The notes under the pieces were generated by a model that saw only the letters and a program-made list of their open reading frames with translations, did no database searches and was not told where the DNA came from. From Rhodothermia bacterium (GTDB lineage Bacteria; Bacteroidota; Rhodothermia; Balneolales; Balneolaceae), in NCBI GenBank assembly GCA_030427885.1, contig JAUICM010000001.1, forward strand, positions 434,001 through 498,000: a stretch of 64,000 bases of DNA. Direction: 5' to 3'. The translations under genes and the position numbers were made by a program. This document shows positions 6,969 to 12,719 of this stretch, piece by piece. Position 1 is the stretch's first letter; the number at the start of each line of letters is the position of its first letter.

Positions 6969-8270
6969 TTAACTAAGTTTTGATATCAGAAACTCCTTAA
7001 AATCATCGAAACTGCTATTGCACGGGATGCTTTTCTTTTCTAAGCCTGATAAACGAATATGAGTGGGCATTTCAACCTCGCTTCCAATCTGTTCTTCGAC
7101 CGTCTCATTAAATTTAACCGGATGTGCGGTTTCAAGTACAATACCAGTCCCTGAATTAGAGCTCAGGTAATCAGAAAGACCCATATAACCTACGGCACCG
7201 TGAGGATCCAGAACATATCCCGTTAATCCATATACCTTACTTATAGTGTTTCGGGTATTATCATCTGAGAAAGAGTATCCGCTGATGTATTCGGTCATCT
7301 TTAGGTGACTCCCTTTAAAAAGATCCAGCATACGGGCGAAGTTGCTAGGATTACCCACATCCATCGCATTTGAGATGGTGGAAACACTTGGTTTTGGATC
7401 ATATTTACCATTCCACAGATACATCGGAACAGTATCATTAGCATTGGAACAGGCTAGAAAATGTTTGATCGGTAAACCCATTCTCCGAGCGATCAATCCA
7501 GCAGAAAGATTTCCATAATTGCCACTTGGAATCGAAAAGATCACATTCTGTTTTTCTTCATCTGATAACTGAGCCCATGCATAAAAGTAGTATACACTCT
7601 GAGGTAAGAGTCGGGCTACATTAATGGAATTTGCAGATGTGAGGTTTAATGAATTGCTAAGTTCATCATCAAGAAAGGCATCTTTAACTAATTTCTGACA
7701 ATCATCAAAAGTACCGTCAACTTCCAGTGCAGTGATATTTCCACCGAGAGTGGTCATCTGCTGCTCCTGAAATTTACTTACTTTGCCTGTTGGATATAGA
7801 ATGATCACTTCAATGCCCGGAACATTATGGAATCCATTGGCAACGGCGCTTCCTGTATCACCGGATGTAGCTACCAGAACAGTAAGTTTTTTATTGTTTC
7901 GAGCCGTGAAGTAACCAAGCGCTCTGGCCAGAAAGCGGGCGCCGACATCTTTAAATGCCAGGGTTGGGCCGTGAAAAAGCTCCAATGCATAAATATGTTC
8001 ATTAATCTTTTTAACAGGAATGTCAAAACTTAGTGTGTCAGTAATGATCTCCTTAAGCTTTTCATCAGGAATCTCACCATCTACGAATGGACGAATCACT
8101 TCAAAACCGATCTCAGCAAGACTAAGCTTCGATAAGTTGTCAAAAAAGGAGGAGGGAAGTACTGGTATTTCTTCCGGCATGAACAAACCGTTATCCCCGG
8201 GAAGTCCTTTGAATATAGCTTGCTGGAATGAAACAGGGGCAGAGGTTCCTTTGGTACTGTAATAGTTCAT
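6969..8270 (-). CDS. thrC: Threonine synthase
   Basis: This 433-residue PLP enzyme converts O-phospho-homoserine to threonine, the last step of the pathway. The PLP lysine lies in HGPTLAFKDVGARF, SGDTGSA and PSGNYGN bind the cofactor phosphate, and the N-terminal MNYYSTKG is typical of the longer bacterial class. Its ATG overlaps the thrB stop by 4 bases, so translation is coupled. The gene order thrA-thrB-thrC matches enterobacterial operons. Confidence 0.96.
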   Translation of the reverse strand: MNYYSTKGTSAPVSFQQAIFKGLPGDNGLFMPEEIPVLPSSFFDNLSKLSLAEIGFEVIRPFVDGEIPDEKLKEIITDTLSFDIPVKKINEHIYALELFHGPTLAFKDVGARFLARALGYFTARNNKKLTVLVATSGDTGSAVANGFHNVPGIEVIILYPTGKVSKFQEQQMTTLGGNITALEVDGTFDDCQKLVKDAFLDDELSNSLNLTSANSINVARLLPQSVYYFYAWAQLSDEEKQNVIFSIPSGNYGNLSAGLIARRMGLPIKHFLACSNANDTVPMYLWNGKYDPKPSVSTISNAMDVGNPSNFARMLDLFKGSHLKMTEYISGYSFSDDNTRNTISKVYGLTGYVLDPHGAVGYMGLSDYLSSNSGTGIVLETAHPVKFNETVEEQIGSEVEMPTHIRLSGLEKKSIPCNSSFDDFKEFLISKLS

Positions 8271-9199
8271 TCGATCACCTCAGCACCTTTAGCATTGATT
8301 GGAGAAACATACACATTAGCATCAATATCGTTTGAGGAATAGATTTCTTTGAATTTCTGGCTGACGATTTCAGCAGTACTTAGATCTTTGGAAAGAGCAA
8401 AAATAGATGGTCCTGACCCTGATATGCTGCAGCCTAGAGCACCTAATTCCATAGCAGAGTTTTTAACCTCGCTAAACAAGGGGATAAGCATGGATCGGGT
8501 GGGCTCAGCTACAACATCAACCAAAGACCGTCCGATAAGCTCATAATCACCTTTAGCGAGGCCTGCAACCAAGCCACCTACATTACCCCATTGCTTAATT
8601 GCGTCTTTCAATTCGATCTGTCGCCTCAGGATCCTTTTTGAATCAGAGGTTTTAACTTCGATCTGAGGATGTACCACCGAAACATATAGTTCTTTAGGGT
8701 AATCCAATTCTATAACATCAAGCGGATCGTATGAACGAACAAGTGTAAATCCACCCAATAATGACGGGGCTACATTATCAGCATGAGGGAGCCCGGATGC
8801 AGCACGTTCGCCTTCCATTGCAAACCTGACAAGTTCTTTATCACTGAATGGATCTCCGAGTAACTTATTGACAGCATACACTGCAGCAGAGGAGCTGGAA
8901 GCGCTAGAGCCCAAACCACTTCCTCCGGATACCTTTTTGGTGATTTCAAATTCAAAACCTTGATCTGGTTTTTCAGTCAGTGCATTTAATAAGGCCTGGA
9001 CAGCAACAGTTGCCACATTCTTTTCAGGCTCAGTTGGGAGCCCTTCACAGCCATGGATAGCAGTGACTCTGAGTCCTGGTGCATTAGTTTTTTTAACAAT
9101 GATCTCATCACCAATGCCTTCTACTGCAAAACCCATTACATCAAACCCGCAGGCAACATTGGCGACAGTAGCAGGTGCAAATACTTTAATTGAATTCAT
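8267..9199 (-). CDS. thrB: Homoserine kinase
   Basis: This GHMP-family kinase of 310 residues phosphorylates homoserine. The ATP-binding loop GGSGLGSSASSSSAAV lies near residues 92-107. The N-terminal FAPATVANVACGFDVMGFA and the C-terminal SISGSGPSIFAL are standard GHMP motifs 1 and 3. It sits 10 bases after thrA and overlaps thrC. The length is typical. Confidence 0.96.
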   Translation of the reverse strand: MNSIKVFAPATVANVACGFDVMGFAVEGIGDEIIVKKTNAPGLRVTAIHGCEGLPTEPEKNVATVAVQALLNALTEKPDQGFEFEITKKVSGGSGLGSSASSSSAAVYAVNKLLGDPFSDKELVRFAMEGERAASGLPHADNVAPSLLGGFTLVRSYDPLDVIELDYPKELYVSVVHPQIEVKTSDSKRILRRQIELKDAIKQWGNVGGLVAGLAKGDYELIGRSLVDVVAEPTRSMLIPLFSEVKNSAMELGALGCSISGSGPSIFALSKDLSTAEIVSQKFKEIYSSNDIDANVYVSPINAKGAEVIE

Positions 9200-9209
9200 A
9201 ATATTCCTG

Positions 9210-11660
9210 TCAGGCTGAAGTGATTCTCATTACATCCGCGAAGATGCCCGATGCAGTAACCGCCGCTCCGGCTCCGGCTCCTTTTATCACCAATGGTTGA
9301 TCAGGATATCTCATAGTCTCGAATAACACAATATTATCCTTTCCCTGAAGCTCATAGAAGGGGTGATCGGGCCCAAAGGTTTCGAGGCCTGCTTTGGCTT
9401 TTCGGTTTTCAAGGCTGGCCACAAACTTGATCCTTTTACCTTCAGATTGAGCTTTGTTATACAATTCCTTGAAAACATGATCGAATTCATCAAGCTTATC
9501 ATAGAATTCTTCAATGCTGTCTGTATTCATACATTCCTCGGGTACAAATGGATCGCTGTCAACATCAGAAAGTTCCATTTTATAACCACTTTCGCGGGCC
9601 AGGATCAGGATCTTCCGCATCACATCAACGCCACTGAGGTCAATTCGCGGATCAGGTTCAGTGTATCCTTCAGCTTTTGCCTGTTTTACCACATCGCTGA
9701 ACTTCTGGGTACCGTCATAGGTATTGAATAAGAAGTTCAAGGTTCCGGATAAAACAGCCTGTATCTTATAGATCCGGTCTCCACTTTTAAGTAGATCACC
9801 CACGGTTGAAATCACCGGCAATCCAGCACCAACATTGGTTTCGAATAGGAATTTTGCCTGATATTTAGTGGCTGTTTTCTTTAATCCAAGGTAGTGATCA
9901 AAATCTGAAGAGCAGGCTACTTTATTCGGTGTTACCACAGAGATACTATTCGTCAAAATTTGCTCATATAGATTGGGGATATCATTGCTGGCAGTACAAT
10001 CTATGAAGATGCTGTTTCGCAGGTTCATCTCGATCATCTTTTCAGTGAAAGATTCCTGAGTCATGGGGAGACCTTCCTTTTCGATCTGATCGGACCACGT
10101 GTTGAGATCGATAGGTTCTTCACTGAAGAGCATTTTTCGGGAATTAGCTAATCCACAAACATTCAGTGATATCTTGAAGGCCTCATTTAAAAATTTTTGC
10201 TGGGATTCAATCTGCTCCAGAAATGCCTTTCCTACATTACCTACCCCAATCATGAATAGATTGAATTTACGAAGGTCGGAGAGGAAGAAACTTTCATGGA
10301 GTGAGTTAAGAGATTTACTCAGGTGCTTCTTATCAACTACCACAGAAATATTGAGCTCTGTAGAACCCTGGGCAATGGCCTTAACATTGATACCATTATG
10401 ACTCAGGGTATCGAAAAGATTGGCACTCACCCCAACCTGTTGACGCATACGTCGCCCGACCATAGCAATTATAGACAGATCTTTTTCAACGGCCAGTGGG
10501 TTTACTTTCCGGATGCGGATCTCATTCTCAAACTCACTTTCGATGCTTTTTCGAGCCCGCTCTGCATCTTTATGAGAAATACCCACAGTGATGGTGTGTT
10601 CAGAGGATGCCTGTGTTATCATGATCACATTCACGCCAACACGGCTTAAGGCTGAAAAAAGGCGGTGAGAGAAATTAGGTACAGCAACCATGCCTGATCC
10701 CGAAAGAGTACACAGTGCGACATCCTCAATACAGGAGATTCCTTTTACCCAGTGCCCGTTCAGGTCTCCATTATCAGAGATCATGGTGCCTTCATCTCCA
10801 TCTGCAAACGTATTCTTGATAAGAACAGGAATTCCTTTGTCGAGTACTGGCTGGATAGTAGGAGGATAGATCACTTTTGCTCCAAAGTGGGAGAGTTCCA
10901 TCGCTTCTTCATAAGACAGATGGGTTATAGGACGTGCCAGAGGAACCAGTTTAGGATTAGCAGTCATCATTCCGCTGACATCAGTCCAGATCTCCAACAG
11001 ATCGGCTTGTACAGCTGCTGCAATAAGAGCTGCGGTATAATCAGAACCACCCCGTCCAAGTGTTGTCGTATGGTTATCAATATTTGAGGAAGCCAGGAAA
11101 CCTGGGCACACACTCACGTCAGCCGGCTCCTTCAATTCAGACTGCAGATTACTGAAAGTCTGATCGATATCAACTACCGCATTACCAAACTGTGCATCGG
11201 TTTTAATAAGTTGTCGTGGATCAAGTAGCTTCGTATCTAGTCCGCTGCTTTTGAAATAATCAGAAATGATGATAGAAGAGAGGCGTTCACCAAAACTCAG
11301 AATGTTATCGCTTGAGCGAGGTGAAAGTTCCTGGATAAGAAATACACCTCTGCAAATATCTTCCAGATCATTAAGCAGGAATTTCACCTGGGTAATGGTA
11401 TTACTTCGCTGAGAGACAGGGATCAGTTTATTGCATAATTCGATATGCCGGGTTTCAATTTCTTTCAGTATCTCCTGATATGCTTCGTTCCCGGTAGCAG
11501 CCAATCCTGCACAGCTAACCAGGTTATTTGTAACTCCGCCTAAAGCTGAAACAACAACGACCTGTTTATCAGAATCAGATCTTTTACCAACAATTTTTTG
11601 AACGAGTTTGAGACTGTCTGCACTACCAACAGAAGTGCCTCCGAATTTTAAAACTAACAT
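9210..11660 (-). CDS. thrA: Bifunctional aspartokinase/homoserine dehydrogenase
   Basis: This 816-residue fusion catalyses the first and third steps from aspartate to homoserine. Residues 1-290 are the kinase (KFGGTSVG at 4-11, GRGGSDYTAALIAAA). A regulatory region with tandem ACT domains (SGSGMVAVPNF, IAQGSTELNISVVV) follows to about 455. The rest is NAD(P)-dependent homoserine dehydrogenase, beginning at MIGVGNVGKAFLEQ. The architecture is that of threonine-inhibited ThrA. Bases 11661-11984 upstream hold a Thr/Ile-rich leader ORF and hairpins, pointing to attenuation control of the whole operon. Confidence 0.96.
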   Translation of the reverse strand: MLVLKFGGTSVGSADSLKLVQKIVGKRSDSDKQVVVVSALGGVTNNLVSCAGLAATGNEAYQEILKEIETRHIELCNKLIPVSQRSNTITQVKFLLNDLEDICRGVFLIQELSPRSSDNILSFGERLSSIIISDYFKSSGLDTKLLDPRQLIKTDAQFGNAVVDIDQTFSNLQSELKEPADVSVCPGFLASSNIDNHTTTLGRGGSDYTAALIAAAVQADLLEIWTDVSGMMTANPKLVPLARPITHLSYEEAMELSHFGAKVIYPPTIQPVLDKGIPVLIKNTFADGDEGTMISDNGDLNGHWVKGISCIEDVALCTLSGSGMVAVPNFSHRLFSALSRVGVNVIMITQASSEHTITVGISHKDAERARKSIESEFENEIRIRKVNPLAVEKDLSIIAMVGRRMRQQVGVSANLFDTLSHNGINVKAIAQGSTELNISVVVDKKHLSKSLNSLHESFFLSDLRKFNLFMIGVGNVGKAFLEQIESQQKFLNEAFKISLNVCGLANSRKMLFSEEPIDLNTWSDQIEKEGLPMTQESFTEKMIEMNLRNSIFIDCTASNDIPNLYEQILTNSISVVTPNKVACSSDFDHYLGLKKTATKYQAKFLFETNVGAGLPVISTVGDLLKSGDRIYKIQAVLSGTLNFLFNTYDGTQKFSDVVKQAKAEGYTEPDPRIDLSGVDVMRKILILARESGYKMELSDVDSDPFVPEECMNTDSIEEFYDKLDEFDHVFKELYNKAQSEGKRIKFVASLENRKAKAGLETFGPDHPFYELQGKDNIVLFETMRYPDQPLVIKGAGAGAAVTASGIFADVMRITSA

Positions 11661-11738
11661 TAATAAATACGATGAATATGTGAGTGTTGAGCGTTTTAAA
11701 GTAGGAAATATATCCTAAGGAAATGATATGTAAATATG

Positions 11739-11848
11739 TACCCCCTAAGGGGTAATAATGGTGGTAATAATAATAGTAGCCATCGTTGTTACGCTCGTAA
11801 CGATCGCTGAAGATTGGGTGCTATGTATTGCTTTGTGTGCCATTATTA
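11739..11848 (-). promoter_or_regulatory. Hairpin-rich leader region of thrABC
   Basis: Several alternative pairings are visible. Hairpin A is 11782-11804 (AACGAT with ATCGTT, with a nested GTTAC/GTAAC alternative). Hairpin B is 11739-11754 (TACCCC/GGGGTA) and includes the leader stop codon. A 9-bp inverted repeat (11753-11761 with 11840-11848) could sequester the leader start codon using the Thr/Ile codons near the end. Hairpin B is followed by AU-rich sequence but not by a clean U-run. It is therefore open whether control is by transcription termination or by translation. Confidence 0.5.
11745..11843 (-). CDS. thrL: Candidate threonine-operon leader peptide (ThrL-like)
   Basis: This ORF of 32 codons plus TAG begins at ATG 11843-11841, 84 bases before thrA. 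The peptide starts MAHKAIHSTQ and ends TIIITTIITP. It contains 8 Thr and 7 Ile, and nine of the last ten residues are Thr or Ile. E. coli ThrL has the same character: a short leader rich in Thr and Ile codons, whose ribosome stalls when those amino acids are scarce. No strong Shine-Dalgarno is visible. Function is inferred from composition and position. Confidence 0.75.
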   Translation of the reverse strand: MAHKAIHSTQSSAIVTSVTTMATIIITTIITP

Positions 11849-11902
11849 TTTACCAACTCTAGTCTATTTCTTTTTAAGCTTAATGTAAACCCCTTTGTAT
11901 GA

Positions 11903-11908
11903 ATTATA
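11903..11908 (-). promoter_or_regulatory. Possible -10 box of the thr operon
   Basis: The minus strand reads TATAAT here, 60 bases before the leader ORF. No convincing -35 box is seen at the usual distance. The region is AT-rich, so a chance match is possible. Confidence 0.3.
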
Positions 11909-11984
11909 ATTAATTAAGGAAGATTAATTTGCTAGGCTAATTATTGTGAATATTTTTGAGCTTTTTAATTAAAAAGGTATCAAT

Positions 11985-12719
11985 ATGAGACAGCATTTTA
12001 AATGTATTAAATACAAGTTATTGTTATTAATAATTATATTTTCAATCCCAATGAATTTTGATGTATTAGCCCAAAGTACAACTTTTGGAATTATAAGATG
12101 GAATATTCGTAATGGTGTTGAAAAATCGATTGTAAAGGATAAAGACATTAATGTAACCTACGACTATTATGCAGCAGGAGTAGAAGGGGTATATTATACT
12201 GATGACATCTATTATCGTGGGAAAATTTACGCTTTTGCAACTGCTAAAAATGATGACAACGGAACTCCATATCAAACAACAAATGGAAGCTTTATAGATA
12301 TTGTATTAGGTGCCTATGATGCTGGGGATGATATTTTTTCTTATGGGTTTGGGCTCAGAGGTGACTTTGAACAAAACGGAATCAAAACCTATGATAATGG
12401 AAAAAAAATATCTCCTAAATCCGCTGATATTGGACTTGATTTTCCTTACACGTATAGTTTAAATGATCTCATAAGGATAAATGGGTATGGGAGTGCATTA
12501 AATGTTTGGACAGAAGAAAAATTCCTTGGGGGTTACGTACTTGATCTGAATACTGAACTTCATGTTTCACCATTATCCTTTTTATCTGTCGGTGCTGGTA
12601 TTAATTACTATATGAAAAGAACAAAAACTCTGGATGATGAAGTCTATAAACTAAGGGCTTTTTACTGGAATGTATTTGTTGGAATTAGCTTTAATGGAAC
12701 TGCTCAAAGTTGGTATTAA
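11985..12719 (+). CDS. Putative outer-membrane beta-barrel protein
   Basis: This 244-residue protein of unknown function has an N-terminal hydrophobic helix ending near VLAQS (signal peptide). The rest has alternating strands rich in Tyr, Gly and Asp (YYAAGVEGVYYTDDIYY, SYGFGLRGDF, FLSVGAGINYYMKR) and ends with an aromatic residue. This fits a small outer-membrane barrel of about 8-10 strands. Base composition is more AT-rich than in the thr operon or galE, so it may be a later arrival. It stands alone on its strand, upstream of a tRNA on the other strand. Confidence 0.65.
   Translation: MRQHFKCIKYKLLLLIIIFSIPMNFDVLAQSTTFGIIRWNIRNGVEKSIVKDKDINVTYDYYAAGVEGVYYTDDIYYRGKIYAFATAKNDDNGTPYQTTNGSFIDIVLGAYDAGDDIFSYGFGLRGDFEQNGIKTYDNGKKISPKSADIGLDFPYTYSLNDLIRINGYGSALNVWTEEKFLGGYVLDLNTELHVSPLSFLSVGAGINYYMKRTKTLDDEVYKLRAFYWNVFVGISFNGTAQSWY

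Follow-up and report, generated by a model that had tools for sequence, protein, structure and literature searches.

Organization of the thr locus

The stretch of DNA analysed here (the window) comprises 64,000 nucleotides (G000:C2:434001-498000) of a 4.1-Mb genome that belongs to the Balneolaceae, in agreement with the FCB-looking lineage put forward in an earlier note on this DNA. Named relatives that carry the same element, namely Gracilimonas mengyeensis, G. amylolytica, a Balneola sp. and Balneolaceae MAGs, are placed by NCBI in the phylum Balneolota of the FCB group. On the minus strand, NCBIfam equivalogs identify a thrA-thrB-thrC operon (11660-6969), and a short ORF with the translation MAHKAIHSTQSSAIVTSVTTMATIIITTIITP, followed by the stop, ends 84 nt before thrA (Table 1). 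This ORF had been described as a 32-codon Thr/Ile-rich frame before thrA; it is present as such, and we counted 8 Thr and 7 Ile among its 32 codons. Its 3′ codons, ACC CCT TAG, supply one arm of hairpin 1 together with its loop, and the stop codon, which had been said to lie within this hairpin, indeed occupies loop bases 2-4. A divergent ORF of 244 aa (window 11985-12719, plus strand) adjoins the thr promoter and gave no NCBIfam match.

A predicted promoter precedes the leader, and the pattern TTTAC(T/A)-N17-TAnn(C/A)T is found in front of all Balneolaceae leaders (13/13). The distance between the -10 hexamer and the first in-frame start codon is 3-10 nt in 12 of these 13 leaders and 17 nt in this genome. 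A leaderless or near-leaderless start is predicted for the leader.

Table 1. Coordinates of the thr leader region (window positions) and of the His-rich leader in the same genome
Feature	Position	Strand	Basis
Predicted promoter, TTTACA-N17-TAGACT, 17 nt 5′ of leader start codon	11861..11889	(-)	promoter scan
Leader ORF, Thr/Ile run at end	11745..11843	(-)	homologous leaders in 13 family genomes
Stem inside leader ORF, arms 11799-11808 / 11778-11787	11778..11808	(-)	pairing at locus
Hairpin 1, TACCCC-TTAG-GGGGTA, loop containing stop codon 11747-11745	11739..11754	(-)	covaries across lineages
CATATC motif, ~9 nt past hairpin 1	11725..11730	(-)	17 sequences found by hairpin
Hairpin 2, TAGGA...TCCTA	11702..11717	(-)	RNAalifold
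C-rich, G-poor stretch 5′ of thrA, possible Rho-loading region	11661..11701	(-)	base composition
thrA, bifunctional aspartate kinase/homoserine dehydrogenase I	9210..11660	(-)	NF006959, 1026 bits
thrB, homoserine kinase	8267..9199	(-)	NF002288 + TIGR00191
thrC, threonine synthase	6969..8270	(-)	TIGR00260
His-rich leader before hisG, HHPHHGIHHGHHRVH followed by stop	L173 (C10:281828 region), 1327-1401	reverse complement	

Recurrence of the leader in Balneolaceae and the wider phylum

The exact 14-nt hairpin sequence ACCCCTTAGGGGGT occurs in 13/92 Balneolaceae genomes, with one copy per genome, and the reversed control pattern gave one match in the same 92 genomes. All 13 copies sit 76-85 nt upstream of thrA, where they close a Thr/Ile-rich ORF; among the closest thrA loci, L001, L004, L005, L006, L009, L010 and L012 have such an ORF, which ends at -81 to -90 with Thr-Pro-stop. 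A search of relatives for the Thr/Ile ORF had been proposed as a check on the leader, and ORF, hairpin and spacing recur together in the 13 family genomes. Across these genomes, the columns preceding the final Thr-Pro-stop are mostly Thr or Ile, with the two interchanging, and the four codon columns nearest to it hold Thr or Ile exclusively, apart from one Ser. Alignment gaps within the leader are multiples of three. Random codon changes, which had been named as grounds for rejecting the leader, gave a divided picture: single-base codon differences within the eight-genome g4 group are mostly synonymous (46 synonymous versus 27 non-synonymous, or 46/73, where 31% is expected), whereas those of the small group of four to which this genome belongs are mostly non-synonymous (4 synonymous versus 10 non-synonymous) and lend leader translation no support.

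The leader is absent from 15 of the 22 Balneolaceae loci examined. Genus g11 (L007 and L008) encodes a ThrA ~73-75% identical to that of this genome, yet is without leader and hairpin; since similar sequence is retained immediately upstream of thrA, the absence in g11 is a recent loss. Two one-mismatch matches to the hairpin motif elsewhere in this genome (L046 and L047) have no leader context and were dropped.

In the sampled part of the wider phylum, home family included, a Thr/Ile leader was counted at 56/129 thrA loci versus 1.2% of dinucleotide shuffles, using one fixed rule that was framed after examples had been seen and on loci that share descent. By family (the labels f1, f21, f29 and so on are anonymous handles), leaders were found at 21/29 loci of f29, 10/11 of f24, 9/10 of f21, 5/6 of f37 and 7/22 of the home family, with single cases in f38, f48, f49 and f55; f29 looks like Flavobacteriaceae from its promoter type, TAnnTTTG. 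Scanning the phylum with a strict pattern overlooked divergent hairpins, which were revealed when the regions 5′ of thrA were read directly. A scan of GTDB genomes for the exact hairpin together with CATATC returned 12 loci, each upstream of an aspartokinase gene. Four of these (L054, L056, L057 and L059) belong to other Bacteroidetes MAGs, with proteins ~46-52% identical to full-length Balneolaceae ThrA and leaders that end in TTTTTP-stop in two cases and in TFTGTP-stop in the other two. In L054 the interval from the conserved hairpin to thrA is ~290 bases longer than in its 93% identical relative L059. Leader-like ORFs upstream of thrA in f48 (L083, L151 and L155) and f55 (L085) contain Met and Thr codons (e.g., HTVMFMCTMTLRG followed by stop), which would fit the pathway common to methionine and threonine.

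A second amino acid operon of the family appears to be similarly arranged. In the same genome, hisG is preceded by the frame GTG-MNLDNLHTAHHPHHGIHHGHHRVH-stop, and six further family members (L175, L176, L178, L191, L199 and L202) carry hisG leaders with 9-10 His within the last 25 residues. The stop codon of the His leaders again falls within a hairpin in the cases inspected by eye.

Hairpin 1 and the RNA between leader and thrA

A stop-codon hairpin, with the stop inside or at its end, is significant (p < 0.05) at 33/43 loci of f1, f24, f29 and f37 and at 0/9 loci of f21. The stem sequence varies from lineage to lineage (ACCCC/GGGGT, ACAACCC/GGGTTGT, ACGGG/CCCGT, GATCCGC/GCGGATT and CCCGG/CCGGG), with ACGGG/CCCGT being a compensating change of f37. 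With sequences anchored on the loop, 85/85 pair cells were paired in 17 four-base-loop variants versus 61.9 ± 2.9 with shuffled partners, including C-G to G-C exchanges at three stem positions; these variants were picked for possessing a stem and 8/17 carry the exact core used as query, so that the covariation rests on the remaining ones. Taken together, the covarying hairpin and the recurrence of ORF, hairpin and spacing in 13 genomes point to more than chance. At stop-in-loop loci the loop contains TAG, TAA or TGA, and in some f29 leaders, whose last residues are PLG or PWG, the hairpin ends with the stop. Hairpin 1 alone qualifies as a terminator at L103, L108, L129 and L134; as a suitable U-tract was seen in 4 loci only, the idea that it is an intrinsic terminator of the ordinary kind in every lineage was rejected.

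Downstream of hairpin 1, CATATC is invariant in the 17 sequences found by the hairpin, an invariance partly built into the search, and CATAT is absent from several divergent loci. CATAT starts ~14 nt after the stop codon at stop-in-loop loci; in the PLG type, whose stop codon sits 6 nt later, the distance is 7-8 nt. Because this distance shifts with the position of the stop, the spacing of CATAT is measured from the hairpin. Hairpin 2 follows, with stems that vary among genomes while complementarity is maintained, as judged by inspection. The segment immediately 5′ of thrA is unstructured in folds and contains on average 12.5 C versus 3.7 G per 48 nt in the 13 Balneolaceae genomes, a bias that is weaker in f29 and f24; this C-rich stretch is a possible Rho-loading region. 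Within the leader itself, the RNAalifold consensus of each group places a stem at a similar position but with different sequence.

A clean U-run after hairpin 1 had been reported missing, and this was borne out: none follows hairpin 1 at the locus, and a terminator scan of window 11500-12100 came back empty. Canonical terminators were found neither at the 13 Balneolaceae (f1) loci nor at the f37 loci, and most lineages have a poor U-rich spacer. Our search for a conserved alternative or antiterminator helix gave one candidate (UAGGG/UCCUA), present in four genomes only; a universal helix pairing a hairpin 1 arm with hairpin 2 was accordingly rejected as confined to one group of four. A repeated leader element, ACATATCAC, picked out by eye and considered as an alternative pairing partner mimicking CATATC, was also rejected, with 3/47 loci at p ≤ 0.05 against shuffles. 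The 9-bp inverted repeat that had been described between the start-codon region and the Thr/Ile codons (11753-11761 / 11840-11848) is perfect at the locus but does not figure in the consensus structure that the relatives share; it was therefore dropped as a functional stem and is probably a by-product of the repetitive ATT/ACC codons.

Proposed control of thrABC and comparison with known systems

The central proposal of the earlier note, a Thr/Ile leader-peptide attenuator before thrABC outside the Proteobacteria, is supported by relatives that keep the ORF while swapping Thr and Ile and that retain the stop-codon hairpin. Sensing of threonine and isoleucine through translation of the leader is the economical interpretation of these sequences, and we hold it to be highly likely; the ORF would tune thrABC to charged tRNA-Thr and, in Balneolaceae, to charged tRNA-Ile. 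Since the same arrangement recurs across the phylum, the leader very probably serves the thr genes as a starvation sensor, built unlike the textbook E. coli version.

With regard to mechanism, hairpin 1 is most likely a ribosome-gated pause or stop for RNA polymerase, possibly with Rho, and the location of CATAT at a fixed distance past the hairpin suits such a pause or stop. We lean, with some reserve, towards a ribosome-mediated attenuator of thrABC in which hairpin 1 holds or stops RNA polymerase, possibly assisted by Rho. Translation would begin at the 5′ end of the transcript or close to it, and the ribosome would meet about ten Thr/Ile codons running into hairpin 1. With Thr and Ile plentiful, the ribosome would reach the stop codon, opening hairpin 1, and depart, leaving hairpin 1 free to form; RNA polymerase would be held or stopped ~10 nt downstream at CATATC, and most transcripts would then be ended by Rho or by hairpin 1 acting as a weak intrinsic terminator. 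When both are scarce, a ribosome stalled in the run would cover the RNA and prevent hairpin 1 from closing, and transcription would proceed into thrA. Rho involvement is suggested by the base composition and by the precedent of the Mycobacterium cys leaders. The timing presents a difficulty, as a ribosome that stalls as early as the first Thr codons in the run leaves hairpin 1 uncovered; with no conserved antiterminator found, the direction of control (starvation turning thrA on) rests on analogy. More tentatively still, a distinct, phylum-wide leader architecture may exist, in which a small hairpin that the ribosome has to open encloses the stop codon or ends with it, the polymerase stops or pauses ~10 nt further on, and threonine and histidine operons are served without a classical antiterminator/terminator pair.

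The fixed distance from hairpin to CATATC is also expected if hairpin 1 were a synchronising pause hairpin only, with RNA polymerase waiting at CATATC until the ribosome melts hairpin 1, like the trp hairpin I:II, and the decision taken downstream by hairpin 2 and alternative pairings. Hairpin 2 does come next in each group, and E. coli trp attenuation employs an established ribosome-released pause hairpin (PMC1183508); however, hairpin 2 of Balneolaceae is not followed by a U-run and no conserved alternative helix was found, which leaves this explanation rather unlikely. A switch that affects how the thrA message is translated or how stable it is, with the stalled ribosome altering folding or cleavage between leader and thrA, would agree with the missing canonical terminator and with the conserved hairpins in this interval, but the unstructured thrA-proximal stretch is ill-suited to occlusion of the start and a leader-thrA gap ranging from ~70 to >170 nt suits neither occlusion nor coupling, so that we regard such a switch as improbable. 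That the ORF is an untranslated chance frame, with RNA structure alone of importance, is scarcely credible, for although ATT/ACC repeats yield such residues in a single sequence and the codon differences of the four-genome group are mostly non-synonymous, the recurrence before thrA far above the shuffles, the synonymous excess in g4, the gaps in multiples of three and the constant placement of the start codon behind the promoter all argue against it.

The invention of amino-acid attenuators is often credited to gammaproteobacteria. On the basis of Rfam models, a survey from 2013 suggested that they may have arisen there, with very few transfers (PMC3766115). In the open literature we did not find thr leaders described in Bacteroidota; a 2010 attenuation survey (doi 10.1134/S0026893310010164, cited in PMC4833913) may list some, and leader-like sORFs are mentioned in general terms in a transcriptome map of B. 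thetaiotaomicron (PMC7366714). No Rfam model covers this stop-codon hairpin leader, and neither the Thr_leader model RF00506 (even at E up to 10) nor RF01692 gave a match at this locus. The latter describes Bacteroid-trp RNA, a presumed cis-regulatory leader RNA in Bacteroidetes (PMC2864571), which differs in being named for trp. In the accessible text of PMC1262725, the regulatory codons of actinobacterial ilvB leaders overlap a hairpin, with poly-U following the hairpins, while Mycobacterium cys leaders have regulatory codons near the stop codon and no terminator, and Rho has been proposed for them. These leaders serve other amino acids in other phyla, and a loop that holds the stop codon is not among the features described in that part of the source.

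The attenuator preferred here shares with the E. coli thr attenuator (thrL, RF00506) a short ORF rich in Thr/Ile codons directly before thrABC. It differs in having the stop codon inside the hairpin and a predicted near-leaderless start, with no canonical terminator with U-run and no antiterminator found; a stop-codon hairpin without canonical terminator fits the earlier suggestion that the mechanism may depart from that of thrL. The thr leaders of f21 (L086-L088, L156, L158, L160-L162 and L166) likewise have a Thr/Ile ORF before thrA, but they carry a canonical terminator in 9/9 cases and are devoid of the stop-codon hairpin. At most f21 loci GGAGGAAG at the leader end complements CTTCCTCC of the terminator, which is the classical design, and L167 joins these nine in showing a textbook leader, terminator and antiterminator-like segment. 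The f21 leaders with their canonical terminators thus indicate that attenuation is used in the phylum. With Thr leaders in many Bacteroidota families and His leaders in Balneolaceae, two architectures occur within one phylum, and the question of whether a ribosome terminating inside a hairpin gates RNA polymerase without a terminator/antiterminator switch is made testable.
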